NCBI GenBank assembly: GCA_009787695.1
Contig: WQSW01000001.1
Coordinates: 1,604 to 65,603 of the forward strand
Source of the DNA: Treponema sp.
GTDB lineage: Bacteria; Spirochaetota; Spirochaetia; Treponematales; Breznakiellaceae
Reading direction: 5' to 3'
DNA: 64,000 bases
The translations under genes were made by a program, and so were the position numbers. This document shows positions 39,702-58,332 of the stretch, in pieces. Position 1 is the stretch's first letter, and every line of letters begins with the position of its first letter. The notes beneath the pieces are model-generated. The model made no database searches, was not told where the DNA came from, and worked only from the letters and a program-made list of their open reading frames with translations.

Positions 39702-40432
39702 AATGCAATCCTCATTTTAATATAATTACTTAATTCAGGATCATTCATAACATCTTCTTTTGTCGCTTGAAACACCACTTTACCCTCAACAAGAATTACT
39801 ACATAATCGGCTATATCCTTTATTATACGCATATCATGACAAACGAAAAGTACCGTAGCACCCTCTTTTTTCTTTTGTTTGACAAGACCGATAAGCCTGT
39901 CTGCGGCAGTTTCATCAAGCGATTCTGTCCATTCATCAAGATATAAAAGAGACGGGTTGCATAATAGCGCACGTGCAAAACCGATTAATTTCTGCTCCCC
40001 CATTGAAAGCCTTGAAGGTCTAATATCAAGTTCTTTTTTATATCCTACTATCCCTGTCACTTCTTTAATCCTTTCTGCCCTTTGTTTTTTATTCATTTGC
40101 GGATAATGTATCCTTAAAGGCAGCTCTAGTATCTGATATAAGTTTTGATTCGCCCAAAGGGCTGAATCCTGAAAAACAAACGCGCTATCTCTCCGGTATT
40201 CCAAATTTTCCGATCTGTTCATATGAGCGATATTTTTTTCTTTGTAATAAACCTCTCCTTGATTAGGGACTAAAAGCCCTGCAGAAAGTTTTAACACCGT
40301 ACTTTTACCGCAGCCTGAAGGACCTACAATAGCTGTGATTTTTTCCGAATTAAATTTGACAGTTATATCCTGAACAATTTTGCCTTCCTGAGCAGAGAAA
40401 GAAACATTATTTAATTCGATAATATTTTCCAT
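39698..40432 (-). CDS. mlaF: ABC transporter ATP-binding protein, MlaF type
   Basis: A 244-residue cytoplasmic ATPase. Walker A is GPSGCGKSTVLKL, the signature LSMGEQKLIGFARAL (ABC signature variant LSMGE) and Walker B LLYLDEWTESLD, where Trp replaces the usual Pro after the catalytic Glu. It powers the MlaE permease. Gene order mlaE-mlaF-mlaD-lipoprotein on the minus strand, gap of 12 bases to mlaE. Confidence 0.92.
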   Translation of the reverse strand: MENIIELNNVSFSAQEGKIVQDITVKFNSEKITAIVGPSGCGKSTVLKLSAGLLVPNQGEVYYKEKNIAHMNRSENLEYRRDSAFVFQDSALWANQNLYQILELPLRIHYPQMNKKQRAERIKEVTGIVGYKKELDIRPSRLSMGEQKLIGFARALLCNPSLLYLDEWTESLDETAADRLIGLVKQKKKEGATVLFVCHDMRIIKDIADYVVILVEGKVVFQATKEDVMNDPELSNYIKMRIAL

Positions 40433-53304: not shown

Positions 53305-54510
53305 ATGGCAGATAAATCTTTAATTGAAAATACATTAAAAAAAGGGGATGGCGTTTTCAGGCTGAACCCCAACTTTATCCCCCGCCCTTTCGGGGTTGAA
53401 GGAAGGCGGCTTCGCCTCCATCCAGATGATTATTTTGCTTATGGGCTTGAACGCGGCTCAATTAAAGAGCGGTGGATGTCTTCCACAAATATTGCGCAAA
53501 ACGGTCCGCTTGCAGGTCCCGCAGAGGGTTTAAGTTTTGTTGCTGTCGATTATTCAAGCGATGAGAAGTTCAGTCTTAAAGAGGCTATAGAAATATTAGG
53601 CGAGCAAATCATCGGCAAGGAATTGATGGACAAGTATAAGGGCTTTCCCGTCTTCTCAAAATTTTATGATCTTAAAACTCCGCTTTTTCATCATCTTCAT
53701 CTTGATATGGAAGCGGCTGCAAGAGTCGGTAAATTGGGAAAACCTGAATGCTATTATTTCCCACATCAGTTTGCAAGCCACACAGGAGAGATGAACGCAA
53801 CCTACTTTGGCTATGACCCCGACACAAAACCTGAAGAAGTTAAACAGCGTCTTAGAGATTACAATAAAGGCGATACACGCATCACTGAACTTTCACGGGC
53901 ATGGCGCATTGAATTAGGTTCAGGCTGGTATTCACCTGCGGGTGTTATACATGCTCCGGGCTCTGTTATGACTTACGAACTAAACTGGAACGGGGATGTA
54001 AACTCAGTTCATGAAAATGTAGTGTCCGGCGTTACATATCCGCGCGGATTTTTAAACGGCGAATGTCCTGCCGATAAAAAAGACGACATCGATTATATTT
54101 TCAGCCTTCTTGATTGGGAAAAAAATATTGATCCTCATTATAAAAAACGTTTCGGCAGACCTCCCATCACTATCGTTAAAAATGCAGACTGCGAAGAAAA
54201 ATGGATTTCCTATGCAAACGAAGGATACTTCAGCGCGAAAGAGCTTTCTGTAAATCCCGGCAAATCTGTAACGATAAAAGAAAGCGCCGCATATAGTGTG
54301 ATTTTTATTCAAGGACACGGCAAATTCGGTGTTCACCATTGCGAAGCGCCTGGAATGTTACGCTTCGGACAGCAGAGCGCGGATGAATTCTTTGTGTCAG
54401 AAGAAGCTGCTAAGAGGGGGATAGTTATCACGAACACAAGCCCTGTTGAGCCTCTTGTTTTGATTAAAGGGTTCGGACCTAATAATGTGAATGTACCTAA
54501 GAAAGATTAG
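53305..54510 (+). CDS. Cupin-fold sugar isomerase-like protein
   Basis: A 401-residue cytoplasmic protein. The block TPLFHHLHLDMEAAARVGK has the metal-binding His-x-His of type I phosphomannose isomerase cupins, and GSGWYSPAGVIHAPGSVMTY gives a further His. A second cupin-like part follows (KSVTIKESAAYSVIFIQGHG). It probably isomerises a phosphosugar, but the substrate is not visible. It lies between the NeuB-like gene and the xylanase; convergent with the latter with 37 bases between. Confidence 0.65.
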   Translation: MADKSLIENTLKKGDGVFRLNPNFIPRPFGVEGRRLRLHPDDYFAYGLERGSIKERWMSSTNIAQNGPLAGPAEGLSFVAVDYSSDEKFSLKEAIEILGEQIIGKELMDKYKGFPVFSKFYDLKTPLFHHLHLDMEAAARVGKLGKPECYYFPHQFASHTGEMNATYFGYDPDTKPEEVKQRLRDYNKGDTRITELSRAWRIELGSGWYSPAGVIHAPGSVMTYELNWNGDVNSVHENVVSGVTYPRGFLNGECPADKKDDIDYIFSLLDWEKNIDPHYKKRFGRPPITIVKNADCEEKWISYANEGYFSAKELSVNPGKSVTIKESAAYSVIFIQGHGKFGVHHCEAPGMLRFGQQSADEFFVSEEAAKRGIVITNTSPVEPLVLIKGFGPNNVNVPKKD

Positions 54511-54547: not shown

Positions 54548-55786
54548 TTAATTAAAACAAAGCTCGATTTTATTATTTTTTCCGTCTAAATTAAAAGTAA
54601 TATTCTTTGCGTTATACGAAACTTCATACCCGCCTTTAAAACCTTCAAGTTTTACGCAGCCGTCATCATCGGTAAAAGCGGAAATTTCTGTGCGCCATTC
54701 TTTTTCTATCTTATTTTTAAGTGCGATATAAGAAGGTTTCTCGCTGTTATCTGTCCTAAGGAAACCTGCGGGCGCATGAAGCCAGGCGTTATCCCCTCCT
54801 GACCATGTTGTGATCGCTTCCACTTTAGGATGAGAGAAAAGTATCTCGTACATTTCAATAATTTCTTTCGCTTGACGTTCTTCGCCTTGGGGGTTTGTAT
54901 TCCACTGCTCTACCTGCCAATCGTTAAGATCAACTATGTGCTCCGGCATTAAATCTCCTGAAATAAGAGTGTTCTCTGTAAAGTGCAAAGGCAAACCGAA
55001 ACGTGAAAAACGCTCAAGGACATCGTGAACTTTTTCCGCTCCCCAGTAACCTTGATGCTGATGCGATTGAATTCCTATTACATCAATAGGAAGCCCTGCC
55101 TGTAAACATTTGTCAATTAATATTTCATAATCTTTTGATACATCATAATCGTTTAATATTAAAACCGCATTTGGATTTGCTCTTTTTGCGGCTTCAAAAA
55201 CTTCTTTTACAATACGCACCTGCCCGTATTCCTTGCATATGCGCGTAACGGCGTTGTCGTATTTATCAAAGACAGGCATTATTACAACTTCGTTAATTAC
55301 ATCCCAAATATCTATTAAACCTTTAAAAGCCGATACATCTCTTTCTATACGCTCAATTACTTTTTTTAAAATTTCTGAATTGGAATAATTCATTAACCAG
55401 GGAGCGCAAACTGTGTGCCAGCAAAGAGGATGACCTTTTAATTTAATTTGTTTTCCTTTAAACCATAACGCGCCTTTTTTTAACCGCTCTTCGTCAGGTT
55501 TTCCTTCGACAGGCTCGTATCTGCCGATATAAAAAGGCAAGGTCGCATAATTGTGAAAGCCGAAAAGTTTGCTTAACTTTTCTTTTAAGTGCGCTTTTTT
55601 ATCTTCATTGATAGGCTCATCATATGTTCTTGCGCTTGCTAACTCTACAGCTTCAAATCCGCCTACCCCGAATAAAAACTGATGGCTTTTTTGACTGATT
55701 TTAACCTCTTGTTTTACAATCGGGCTTTTATCGCTTTTAATTAAACGCAGATTAATTTCCGCTTTTCTATGATTTAAATCAATCAT
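54548..55786 (-). CDS. Family 10 glycoside hydrolase, probable cytoplasmic xylanase
   Basis: A 412-residue GH10 (beta-1,4-xylanase family) protein. The acid/base Glu is E166 in WDVINEVV and the nucleophile E271 in LHFTENTL, both in the correct order; KGHPLCWHTVCAPWL is the family substrate-binding block. There is no signal peptide, so it acts inside the cell on xylo-oligosaccharides. It is 12 bases downstream of lsrF and preceded by AAGGAA, so it belongs to the lsrF operon. About 80 C-terminal residues form an extra beta domain. Confidence 0.92.
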   Translation of the reverse strand: MIDLNHRKAEINLRLIKSDKSPIVKQEVKISQKSHQFLFGVGGFEAVELASARTYDEPINEDKKAHLKEKLSKLFGFHNYATLPFYIGRYEPVEGKPDEERLKKGALWFKGKQIKLKGHPLCWHTVCAPWLMNYSNSEILKKVIERIERDVSAFKGLIDIWDVINEVVIMPVFDKYDNAVTRICKEYGQVRIVKEVFEAAKRANPNAVLILNDYDVSKDYEILIDKCLQAGLPIDVIGIQSHQHQGYWGAEKVHDVLERFSRFGLPLHFTENTLISGDLMPEHIVDLNDWQVEQWNTNPQGEERQAKEIIEMYEILFSHPKVEAITTWSGGDNAWLHAPAGFLRTDNSEKPSYIALKNKIEKEWRTEISAFTDDDGCVKLEGFKGGYEVSYNAKNITFNLDGKNNKIELCFN

Positions 55787-55798
55787 ATTTATTCCTTG

Positions 55799-56683
55799 TT
55801 ATTTAGTTTTTGTCTTTTCGCTGAAAAATTGCCAGGCTTCTTTGTCGGTGAATTTGTTATGCACAATTTTTCCGATAGCGTCCGCCATTGCGGCAGGATG
55901 ATAAGACTGAAAAATATTTCTGCCCATATCAAGACCTTTCGCTCCGCCTTGAATAGATTTATACGCCATAGTTAGCGCTTCCTTTTCTGTCAGTTTTTTT
56001 CCGCCCGCTACAACAATAGGGACAGGGCAAGCTGCGACAATCTCCTCAAAATCATCGCAGTAGTAAGTTTTTATAATGTTTGCACCTAACTCTGCAACTA
56101 TTCGTGTTGCAAGTTTAAAATACTGGCTTGTTCTTTCCATGTTTTTTCCGACAGCGATTACCCCTAAGGTGGGAATACTGTAATGCGATCCTGCATTTAT
56201 CACTTTGGAAAGATTGTCGATGCTCGAAAGCTGCCCGTCAGCTCCTATAAAAGTTTGAACCGCCATGCAGTCGGCATTCATGCGGATTGCGTCTTCTATA
56301 TCAACGGAAATTATTTCATGGCTTAGGTCGTCGTTAATCATTGAAGAGCCGGCGGACATCCGAAGAGCTATTCCCTTTCTAAAAGTTGGTTTAACGCAGG
56401 TACGCAACGCGCCTCTTGTCGCCATTAGAACATCAACATGATCGATTAATTGAGGGATGAGGATATCAAGCCTTTCAAGACCTGAAACAGAACCCATAAA
56501 ATAACCGTGATCGAAGGCAAACATCACAGTATTTCCGCTTTTAGGGTTAAAAATATTTGTCAGGTGTTTTTTCATACCCCAATCAAGATTTGCCGCCCCT
56601 TTTACATGAAAATTCCCGTTTGTTTTAAAAGCAACATCGGTGTGATAATTTTTCTCGATTTTATTTCCGTCTTTGTCAGCCAT
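55799..56683 (-). CDS. lsrF: 3-hydroxy-5-phosphonooxypentane-2,4-dione thiolase (AI-2 catabolism)
   Basis: A 294-residue class I aldolase-like enzyme that breaks down phosphorylated autoinducer-2 in the last step of AI-2 catabolism. The match to enterobacterial LsrF is clear along the length: LDWGMKKHL, IFNPKSGNTVMFAFDHGYF, TRGALRT, and the catalytic Lys at residue 205 in IIKTYYC (corresponding to the Lys of IIKTYYV), then AGGKKLTEKEAL and GAKGLDMGRNIFQS. It is divergent from lsrK across 86 bases and heads the operon with the xylanase. No LsrABCD transporter, LsrB, LsrG or LsrR is adjacent. Confidence 0.92.
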   Translation of the reverse strand: MADKDGNKIEKNYHTDVAFKTNGNFHVKGAANLDWGMKKHLTNIFNPKSGNTVMFAFDHGYFMGSVSGLERLDILIPQLIDHVDVLMATRGALRTCVKPTFRKGIALRMSAGSSMINDDLSHEIISVDIEDAIRMNADCMAVQTFIGADGQLSSIDNLSKVINAGSHYSIPTLGVIAVGKNMERTSQYFKLATRIVAELGANIIKTYYCDDFEEIVAACPVPIVVAGGKKLTEKEALTMAYKSIQGGAKGLDMGRNIFQSYHPAAMADAIGKIVHNKFTDKEAWQFFSEKTKTK

Positions 56684-56708
56684 ATTTTCCTCACTTTAAA
56701 AATAGTAT

Positions 56709-56757
56709 TTGATAATTTTACATCTAAAACTTATAATGAACAATACCAAATAATTGG
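56709..56757. promoter_or_regulatory. Interleaved lsrK and lsrF promoters with a possible operator
   Basis: lsrK (plus): -35 TTGATA 56709-56714, spacer 17, -10 TATAAT 56732-56737. lsrF (minus): -35 TTGTTC 56738-56743, spacer 17, -10 TAAAAT 56715-56720. The two promoters occupy the same 35 bases in opposite directions, so they should exclude each other. An interrupted palindrome, CCAA-N4-TTGG (56746-56757), lies just beyond the lsrF -35 and at the lsrK start; it is a possible operator. Confidence 0.55.
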
Positions 56758-56769
56758 AAATGAGGTGTT

Positions 56770-58332
56770 ATGTCAAATTATTTAATGGCACTTGACGCAG
56801 GGACAGGCAGTATAAGAGCTGTAATTTTTGATATAGACGGCAATCAAATCGGCTGCGATCAAAAAGAATGGAAACATTTGGAAGACCCCCGTTTCCCTGC
56901 AAGCATGGATTTTGATTGCAATGCAAATTGGCATCTTGTTTGTTCATGTATCAAAGGAGTTCTTTCGCAAACCGGAATAAATGCAAAGCAAATCGCCGCT
57001 GTTTCTACAACTTGCATGAGGGAAGGAATCGTTCTTTATGACGCTGAGGGAAAAGAACTTTTTGCCTGCGCCAATGTTGATGCACGCGCAAAAGATGAAG
57101 TATCGCAATTAAAAAAGATCGATCCGAATTTAGAAAAAGAAATTTATTTAAAATCAGGGCAGACCTTCGCGCTCGGCGCACTGCCGCGTCTTTTATGGGT
57201 AAAAAATAAATTGCCGTCAGTTTATGAAAAAACAAAACGCATCGGTATGATCAATGACTGGATAATTTTTAAACTTACAGGCACTCTTTCAGTAGAACCG
57301 AGTAACGGATCAACTACAGGTTTATTCGATTTAAAAACAAGAAATTGGGATATAGAAATTGCGAGGCGTTGCGGCATAAGAGATGATATTTTCCCTCCTG
57401 TAAATGAATGCGGGACTGTCACGTCAAAGGTTTCTAAAAAAGGAGCTGATGACAGCTCTCTTGCAGAAGGCACACCTGTTGTAACAGGAGGAGGCGATTG
57501 CCAGCTTGGAACAATAGGGGTTGGAGTTACAGAAGAAGGGGAAGCTGTAGTTTTCGGCGGAAGTTTTTGGCAGTACGAGTTTAACACTGCTTCTGCTGTT
57601 TGCTCCCCTAAATGCAATATACGCGTTAACTGTCATGCAGTAGAAAATTTATGGCAGTATGAAGCGATTGCTTTTAATCCGGGACTTGTTATGCGCTGGT
57701 TTAGGGATGCATTCTGCGAAGAAGAAAAGCGCAAAGCAAAAGAATTAAATACCGACCCCTACGTTCTTTTAGATAAAGAAGCGCATAATGTTCCTGCGGG
57801 AAGCAACGGCATTATCTGCACATTCTCTGATGTAATGAATTATATAAACTGGAAACATTCATCGCCTTCCTTTATAAATTTTTCTCTTGACCCTCTTAAA
57901 TTTAACAAAGCCGTCTTTTACCGTGCCATTATGGAAAATGCCTGCCTTGTAACATTGGGACATTTGCGCCTTGCAGAAGAAGTGACAGGAAAACGCCCAA
58001 ACAAAATAGTTTTTGCAGGAGGGGCTGCAAAAAGCGCCGTTTGGTCACAGATTCTCTCTGATGTGCTTGGAATCCCTGTAGATGTCCCATTAGTAAAGGA
58101 AGCCACCGCGCTTGGAGCAGCCATAATGGCGGGTAAAGGTATCGGTCTTTATTCAAGTGTAAAAGAAGCGGCAAAAAGACTTGTCAAGATTGAAAAAACA
58201 TATATCCCTAACAATAATAACCGTGAAGTGTATGATAAAATGTATCTTAATTGGAGAGCGGCGTATAAACCGATGCTTGAGTTAAGCGATCAGGGGGTAA
58301 CAGATTATATGTGGTGTGCGCCGGGACTCTGA
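56770..58332 (+). CDS. lsrK: Autoinducer-2 kinase
   Basis: A 520-residue FGGY sugar kinase that phosphorylates the quorum signal AI-2 (DPD). It matches enterobacterial LsrK (530 residues) throughout: YLMALDAGTGSIRAVIFD at the N-terminus, STTCMREGIVLY, CANVDARA, TGGGDCQLG, MRWFRDAFC, FSLDPLKFNKA, VFAGGAAKSAVWSQI and VVKEATALG. The 'MRWFRDAFC' and 'REGIVLY' blocks distinguish it from xylulokinase. It stands alone on the plus strand with GAGGTG before the ATG. Whether the cell also makes AI-2 (luxS) is not visible. Confidence 0.93.
   Translation: MSNYLMALDAGTGSIRAVIFDIDGNQIGCDQKEWKHLEDPRFPASMDFDCNANWHLVCSCIKGVLSQTGINAKQIAAVSTTCMREGIVLYDAEGKELFACANVDARAKDEVSQLKKIDPNLEKEIYLKSGQTFALGALPRLLWVKNKLPSVYEKTKRIGMINDWIIFKLTGTLSVEPSNGSTTGLFDLKTRNWDIEIARRCGIRDDIFPPVNECGTVTSKVSKKGADDSSLAEGTPVVTGGGDCQLGTIGVGVTEEGEAVVFGGSFWQYEFNTASAVCSPKCNIRVNCHAVENLWQYEAIAFNPGLVMRWFRDAFCEEEKRKAKELNTDPYVLLDKEAHNVPAGSNGIICTFSDVMNYINWKHSSPSFINFSLDPLKFNKAVFYRAIMENACLVTLGHLRLAEEVTGKRPNKIVFAGGAAKSAVWSQILSDVLGIPVDVPLVKEATALGAAIMAGKGIGLYSSVKEAAKRLVKIEKTYIPNNNNREVYDKMYLNWRAAYKPMLELSDQGVTDYMWCAPGL

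Follow-up and report, generated by a model that had tools for sequence, protein, structure and literature searches.

A divergent lsrK-lsrF pair in a Treponema genome and a cupin as candidate third partner in autoinducer-2 processing

A 64,000-nucleotide stretch of a Treponema sp. genome (assembly GCA_009787695.1, contig WQSW01000001.1, positions 1,604 to 65,603 of the forward strand), which we call the window, carries genes for the autoinducer-2 (AI-2) kinase LsrK and the thiolase LsrF as a divergent pair. Most discussion of AI-2 treats it as a signal and treats LuxS either as the enzyme that supplies it or as part of the methyl cycle. The locus raises the question of what these two enzymes do where no transporter or repressor gene adjoins them. 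A sequence-only reading of the window had recognized both genes along their whole lengths and had proposed that the cell may intercept AI-2 made by its neighbors through another uptake route or that the enzymes may have been adapted to another five-carbon phosphosugar. The window genome has 115 contigs and is 95.6% complete. The two genes, with AI-2 given as 4,5-dihydroxy-2,3-pentanedione (DPD), are as follows.

56770-58332, plus strand: lsrK, AI-2 (DPD) kinase of the FGGY family, 520 amino acids (NF008187, PDB 5ya0, LsrK clade)
55799-56683, minus strand: lsrF, 3-hydroxy-5-phosphonooxypentane-2,4-dione thiolase, 294 amino acids, catalytic K205 (NF006081, PDB 3gkf/3glc, active site)

Both genes were recognizable over their full lengths and scored above the cut-offs of equivalog models. 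LsrK matched NCBIfam NF008187 at 772.2 bits (cut-off, 528) over residues 2 to 520, which is its full length, with xylulokinase as the runner-up at 213 bits. LsrF matched NF006081 at 400.3 bits, also over its full length (cut-off, 297; runner-up family, 177 bits). The closest solved structure to LsrK was 5ya0 (E value, 8e-172), and the closest to LsrF were those of Escherichia coli LsrF, 3gkf and 3glc (E value, 1e-89). Identity to the E. coli proteins was 50.4% for LsrK (520 aligned residues) and 51.6% for LsrF (289 aligned residues). The divergent arrangement also held, with 86 bp separating the start codons. An excerpt of PMC2728841 names D57, H58, K203, G226, G227, D251, G253, and R254 as active-site residues of E. 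coli LsrF, and 8/8 are identical in the window protein, the catalytic lysine, the acid/base aspartate, and the phosphate-binding residues included. E. coli K203 aligns to K205, the lysine that had been picked out as catalytic from the sequence.

In a 49-row tree, the window LsrK fell together with E. coli LsrK within a 33-row LsrK clade (support, 100/96), and E. coli XylB, GlpK, FucK, AraB, LyxK, and YgcE fell outside on long outgroup branches. A grouping of LsrK with non-AI-2 FGGY kinases, which the sequence-only reading had named as the outcome that would speak against it, did not occur. The terminal branch of the window LsrK was short (0.22), and its nearest relatives were from metagenome-assembled Treponema (L101, L102, and L104 closest), whose isolate codes we take to denote termite hosts. 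When lsrK and lsrF were compared with three relatives, nonsynonymous divergence (dN) was 0.05 to 0.17 and synonymous sites were near saturation. Both genes are under purifying selection and strong constraint. We firmly predict that the window genes encode a true LsrK and a true LsrF.

We searched the window genome for the rest of the pathway, as the sequence-only reading had suggested. A luxS gene is present (C2:75292-75717; 181.7 bits to PF02664, cut-off 27). In searches run without a positive-control genome, a profile of nine LsrB proteins found no LsrB, and no LsrR was found above noise (best match fragmentary; E value, 0.05). LsrG gave no match at an E value of 0.001, in a search whose control genomes all stayed below the LsrG cut-off. 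Within the window, tblastn found no lsrB, lsrC, lsrD, or lsrR, which agrees with the earlier statement that none is adjacent, and returned one weak ATPase match (53 bits, at 39752). Of the importer proteins, the genome-wide profile search covered LsrB. A search with PF13407 (Peripla_BP_4), for which 13/14 controls were positive, returned one protein over the cut-off and one match under it. The protein over the cut-off, on contig C64, is ChvE/XylF-like, with 309 bits to ChvE, below the ChvE cut-off of 460. From its gene content, the window genome should make DPD, phosphorylate it, and cleave it, and we found no dedicated importer or AI-2 switch. Because the genome has its own luxS and no dedicated importer was found, self-made DPD is a simpler substrate than intercepted AI-2, and the proposed interception of neighbors' AI-2 was not supported as stated.

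The gene set raised by these searches was then compared across 392 Spirochaetota genomes, with LsrK and LsrF counted above model cut-offs. LsrF was present in 33/392, LsrK in 22/392, and both in 18/392. Full operons (lsrACDB plus lsrR) were found in eight annotated neighborhoods (G305, G111, G385, G259, G288, G370, G256, and G034), either with lsrK-lsrR opposite lsrACDBF or in a rearranged order; lsrC was not called separately in G111, and in G256 lsrF is on the same contig but away from the other lsr genes. No match to E. coli LsrG was found among the open reading frames (ORFs) of 20 spirochaete neighborhoods. Directly behind lsrK, a gene for 116 to 120 amino acids was present in the seven loci read, which come from six full-operon genomes and from G212, presumably Treponema primitia, whose locus is compact (lsrF, lsrK, and the small gene with no transporter gene or lsrR nearby). 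Four of the seven small proteins were scanned, and all four belong to Pfam Cupin_2.

We built a profile (A1) from these seven lsrK-adjacent cupins and set the group threshold at 170 bits. Eighteen of the 392 genomes had a cupin above this threshold; the next scored 124 bits or less, and the neighbors of the four next-best homologues, read by eye, were not lsr-like. The cupin was present in 17/18 genomes with both LsrK and LsrF versus 1/374 others (Fisher P = 1.3e-27) and, with the seven seed genomes left out, in 10/11 versus 1/374 (P = 7e-18); both P values are descriptive and ignore relatedness and linkage. It lay within 500 bp of lsrK in 15/18 of the genomes with both enzymes and on another contig in the window genome and in G295, a draft assembly that retains lsrF, lsrK, and the cupin on three contigs. 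Since these two genomes keep the cupin on other contigs, its retention is not a matter of linkage alone. The lone genome with the cupin outside the LsrK-plus-LsrF set, G386, has broken lsrF, lsrB, and lsrR pieces beside an intact cupin gene (L209:7505-10370). We conclude that the cupin very probably belongs to the LsrK/LsrF pathway.

The cupin of the window genome is 116 amino acids long (C9:41314-41658) and scored 196 bits against the lsr-linked cupin profile, in which it was not a seed. It is on a different contig from lsrK, 10 bp behind an aminotransferase gene (L091:276-1851). Relatives of that aminotransferase lie downstream of the cupin, facing it, in L102, L105, and L110, and these positions point to a local rearrangement. 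The cupin could not be seen from the window because it sits on another contig, and the description of a two-gene pair was in this respect incomplete.

We extended the scan to the genome_contigs collection (one genome per species; 84,980 species) with cupin profile A4 and kept the best 80 of 339 relatives, a set that overlaps the surveyed Spirochaetota genomes in part (e.g., L177 and G295). In 73 of these best 80 loci, full operons included, lsrK is directly upstream of the cupin on the same strand, at a distance of 9 to 305 bp. By gene content, 36 loci have lsrA, lsrC, lsrD, lsrB, lsrR, lsrF, and lsrK, 19 have lsrF and lsrK only, and 25 are partial, many of them ended by contig ends. E. coli LsrG matched none (0/80). 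Seven loci lack lsrK; in L117, L124, L136, and L173, the contig ends less than 300 bp from the cupin, too close for lsrK to be included, and L103, L134, and L177 are true exceptions. On a Lacticaseibacillus plasmid, a full lsr operon without an lsrG match includes a cupin of this kind (59% identity) behind lsrK, and in this record, the one annotated record examined, the protein is called just "cupin domain-containing protein." An unbiased test of the cupin in Clostridia was set aside: LsrK was found in only 3/329 genomes at an E value of 1e-100, two of them over the cut-off, and one was the center genome, already chosen for its cupin, so no statistic was possible. Of the other two, G672 has a divergent cupin (25% identity, 39 bits) beside an LsrK-like gene, and the 7.7 kb examined in G697 showed no cupin.

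Compact loci, with lsrF, lsrK, and the cupin and without a transporter gene or lsrR nearby, include L101, L102, L104, L105, G212, and the Lachnospiraceae loci L148 and L169. The window pair is one case of a recurrent arrangement in which no transporter genes lie close by. On a 60-row tree of LsrK plus LsrF, a minimum of four state changes is required to explain the distribution of compact and full types, as counted by a quick method in which loss and gain are indistinguishable. The full-operon loci L120 and L137 nest among compact Treponema loci, and the two compact Lachnospiraceae loci sit beside full-operon Clostridia. Our preferred reading is that the importer and regulator were lost repeatedly while the kinase, cupin, and thiolase were kept, which suggests that these three work together.

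LsrG isomerizes phospho-DPD (P-DPD), and LsrF then yields dihydroxyacetone phosphate (DHAP) and acetyl-CoA, according to an excerpt of PMC8016206. LsrG was found above the cut-off in 0/39 distinct genomes with a model that gave E. coli LsrG itself 192 bits, and three cupins scanned with the LsrG model, NF007791, gave no match, in a scan where E. coli LsrG did match. The nearly constant presence of the cupin fits a pathway whose LsrG step is vacant. A model of the L101 cupin (62 aligned sequences; predicted local distance difference test [pLDDT] score, 86) is a single cupin barrel whose best Foldseek matches are the Thermococcus cupin phosphomannose isomerases 7zvm and 7zvy. A second alignment, with VIA-align 2, gave these isomerases a Z score of 15.4, a score shared by several other cupins, KdgF among them. 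H43 and H45 (an HxH motif), E49, E50, and H84 are invariant in the 62 sequences, as would be expected of a metal site. Conversion of P-DPD to the 2,4-dione is an isomerization of a phosphosugar-like compound, which is chemistry that cupin isomerases do. From its position and the vacant step, we think it somewhat more probable than not that the cupin replaces LsrG as the P-DPD isomerase.

These results lead us to favor, by a modest degree, a cytoplasmic DPD salvage pathway that consists of LsrK, the cupin as an unrelated stand-in for LsrG, and LsrF and that has no importer or switch of its own. LuxS would release DPD inside the cell, and LsrK would phosphorylate it to P-DPD. The 116-amino-acid cupin would isomerize P-DPD to the 2,4-dione, the step taken by LsrG in E. 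coli, and LsrF with CoA would split the dione into DHAP and acetyl-CoA. We consider it probable that the ancestral locus was a full operon that lost lsrACDB and lsrR; with these genes gone, the module would no longer read a signal and would mainly remove or salvage the cell's own DPD. AI-2 that entered in another way would also be removed, and expression would probably be at a steady level. In our judgment, the chances that DPD made by the cell itself is the main substrate of the compact set are slightly better than even. The chances are about even for the broader statement that the lsr-linked cupin is a metal-dependent LsrG replacement across Spirochaetota, Clostridia, and lactobacilli and that lsrF-lsrK-cupin is a signal-free set for recovery or detoxification of own DPD in AI-2 producers.

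Several observations weigh against this salvage pathway. The link between luxS and the compact type is weak: luxS is present in 10/11 compact-type genomes tested (G000, which is the window genome, G212, and G397-G405; only G403 lacks it), but 8/14 full-operon genomes tested (eight spirochaetes and six Clostridia, G392-G396 and G406) also have it, a difference that is not significant (Fisher P = 0.09) and is confounded by family membership. Within the window's family, luxS is present in 17/17 searched genomes, and 11/17 have it without lsrK or lsrF, so salvage is dispensable. The window genome encodes a PF01594 protein of the family often named AI-2 exporter; as a discriminator this family is uninformative, since 30/31 genomes searched carry it. 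LsrG-like matches below the cut-off occurred in 7/24 spirochaete genomes, three with LsrK and without LsrF (G039, 99 bits; G003, 95; G068, 79) and four with both enzymes (G256, 81 bits; G370, 36; G212, 26; G034, 22), so some of these genomes may use an LsrG-like protein. G138 has intact LsrK and LsrF, and neither the cupin nor LsrG was found in it; we considered whether its lsrK was a pseudogene and rejected this, as the internal TAA is the stop codon of lsrF and lsrK is intact, and we counted G138 as an exception. In G003, G028, G039, and G068, LsrK is present but LsrF and the cupin are both absent, and in L103 the cupin is retained although the 16 kb of this locus contain neither lsrF nor lsrK. 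The compact loci show the absence of a nearby transporter only; some of their flanks end at contig ends, and the genome search for LsrB covers the window genome. Lyases, a dehydratase, and other enzymes are also among the structural matches of the cupin model, and because proteins with the cupin fold carry out many chemistries, the proposed isomerase activity is a guess based on gene position and on the unfilled LsrG step.

Two observations on other lsr-related proteins were made in the same searches. G351, which is from the same genus as the window genome, carries luxS twice and lacks both lsrK and lsrF. In an alignment of Treponema-type LsrB, the AI-2 binding residues K, D, DQ, and P are kept, and the residues after the proline are G-Q versus A-A in E. 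coli; the binding specificity of this LsrB type may differ from that of the E. coli protein.

The cupin could have another role than that of pathway isomerase: it might be a small protein with a regulatory or sensing function for phospho-AI-2, or it might assist by acting on DPD ahead of LsrK. The cupin fold also serves ligand sensing, and in full operons the cupin follows lsrR-lsrK and not lsrF. However, the cupin is kept in 19/80 loci without a nearby lsrR or transporter and in the window genome, where none was found, its metal-ligand-like residues are invariant, and its nearest folds include phosphosugar isomerases; we regard a sensor or helper as possible but doubtful. The source of the DPD could differ as well. 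LsrK and LsrF would act on cytoplasmic DPD of any origin, related spirochaetes possess full importers, and the ChvE-like sugar ABC system on C64 might, or passive entry might, let the enzymes consume the AI-2 of neighbors as a carbon source or for signal jamming. This is rather unlikely in our view: the sole Peripla_BP_4 protein over the cut-off is ChvE-like at a score below the ChvE cut-off, LsrB was not found in the search described above, and luxS allows DPD to arise internally.

A change of substrate, in which the pair was reused for another five-carbon phosphosugar and AI-2 is no longer used, would fit the LsrF-type enzymes that occur without LsrK beside DhaK/DhaL or zinc dehydrogenase genes (e.g., L068 and L073). 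The position of the window LsrK inside the LsrK clade on its short end branch, the unchanged active site of LsrF, and the presence of LsrK, LsrF, and cupin as the same set as in LsrB-bearing full operons speak against it, and this second proposal of the sequence-only reading found no support and appears improbable. Finally, the genes could be a functionless remnant of a decaying lsr operon, given that neither LsrB nor LsrR was found in the window genome, that G386 shows ongoing decay, and that among genus relatives G177 keeps lsrF without lsrK and G351 has neither. Intact genes with low dN next to near-saturated synonymous change, a cupin retained on another contig, and a tree on which loci switched repeatedly between the full and the compact type make decay a very improbable account of the pair, and salvage of DPD by LsrK, the cupin, and LsrF is the explanation that we retain.

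LsrF-family genes also occur in settings without lsrK. They lie directly behind dhaK/dhaL, with no lsrK nearby, in L200:7291-9873 and L201:7224-9894 (both annotated) and in L071:8363-10910 (read by eye), and this is probably a different LsrF pathway. In spirochaetes without lsrK, an LsrF-family gene is followed by a zinc alcohol dehydrogenase gene in L068:8021-9940 and L073:6251-8183 (by Pfam) and in L076:5566-7469 (by eye). We rejected LsrF alone as an AI-2 marker, since with such neighbors and no LsrK it is not AI-2-specific.

Three further features lie around the pair in the window.

56709-56737, plus strand: predicted sigma-70-like promoter for lsrK (TTGATA, 17 nt, TATAAT; match, 11/12), inside the 86-bp gap
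54548-55786, minus strand: GH10 protein, 3' of lsrF (Pfam PF00331; E value, 1.7e-31)
53305-54510, plus strand: conserved 401-amino-acid protein, family unassigned by Pfam and NCBIfam, a recurrent lsr neighbor in related spirochaetes

The predicted promoter is weak on its own, because seven sites were observed in the scanned region versus 5.4 expected by chance. Boxes resembling its -10 element were seen by eye in several related divergent gaps, and many compact-locus gaps are short and AT-rich. A near-consensus promoter and short AT-rich gaps would suit steady expression. We also looked for the site of a replacement regulator by comparing gaps from 16/19 compact loci and the window, with words compared in 15 (14 Treponema loci and the window); the shared words were only AT-rich and promoter-like, and nothing firm emerged.

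The sequence-only reading had placed a cytoplasmic xylanase after lsrF. The GH10 assignment stands; the cytoplasmic location is judged by eye from an N terminus without a signal peptide. Relatives with 74 to 77% identity are present in six related loci, five of which adjoin lsrF. We rejected GH10 as a general member of the pathway, as it is beside lsrF in L060 and in only 4/19 compact loci (L102, L104, L109, and L113), with some other flanks ending at contig ends. It appears to be the lsrF neighbor of one sublineage. The 401-amino-acid protein, which had no match in Pfam or NCBIfam, was found in 16/88 loci searched, at 78 to 93% identity over its full length in 14 spirochaete loci and partially in two, and its gene is directly upstream of lsrR, lsrK, or lsrF in L106, L108, L133, L135, L145, and L147. 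It shows a faint likeness to mannose-6-phosphate isomerase (E value, 0.05), and its structure model is poor (pLDDT, 41). It is a possible further partner of the lsr genes. At L103:6400-10600, the 401-amino-acid gene, GH10, cupin, and aminotransferase genes are kept, and unrelated small ORFs replace lsrF and lsrK between GH10 and the cupin.

Within the open-license literature (subscription papers were outside the scope), we found nothing that joins lsrK, a cupin, and AI-2, nothing that joins LsrG and a cupin, and nothing that joins Treponema primitia and luxS. A Bacillus genome paper mentions both "lsr operon" and cupin, and there are papers that name Treponema and lsrK. Excerpts of further papers state that lsr transfer to Spirochaeta smaragdinae was inferred (PMC3420918), that Spirochaetales had no lsrB as of 2008 (PMC2561040), that LsrB is listed in Spirochaetota, with LsrK, LsrF, and LsrG absent from its text (PMC12268683), and that rumen Treponema is among the genera richest in AI-2-related genes, with lsrK, lsrF, and lsrG likewise absent (PMC9540692). 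The text of a termite spirochaete paper has no luxS, lsr, or quorum (PMC13067680), and that of PMC12834153 has no LsrG or cupin. If a signal-free own-DPD pathway with the cupin is true, LsrK and LsrF should not be taken as a sign that these bacteria use quorum sensing. LsrK, cupin, and LsrF without a nearby importer in LuxS bacteria make the fate of a cell's own DPD directly testable. One cupin family may fill the LsrG step, which makes it a candidate for the missing enzyme.

Known systems resemble the window set in part. LsrG is the protein whose reaction step is proposed for the cupin, but the two are of different families, Cupin_2 for the cupins and NF007791 for E. coli LsrG. The Thermococcus isomerases are small single cupins with the closest solved folds by Foldseek; identity is about 26%, and the substrate would differ. 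The E. coli K-12 system (lsrK, lsrR, and lsrACDBFG) has an orthologous kinase and thiolase at the identities given above, with the checked LsrF residues kept, whereas in the window genome LsrB, LsrR, and LsrG were not found, the kinase and thiolase genes are divergent, and a cupin is in the genome instead. The full operons of Treponema vincentii, T. socranskii, and Clostridium ragsdalei (L122, L127, and L151) share the cupin family, with no lsrG match; theirs follows lsrK, with lsrF at the other end, and they have lsrACDB and lsrR, whereas lsrB, lsrC, lsrD, and lsrR were not found in the window. The compact loci are like the window in having no transporter or lsrR nearby, but their cupin is directly behind lsrK, and that of the window genome is on another contig beside the aminotransferase. 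What is new here is the cupin as a near-constant third partner of LsrK and LsrF, which is a variant of a known pathway and not a new kind of system.

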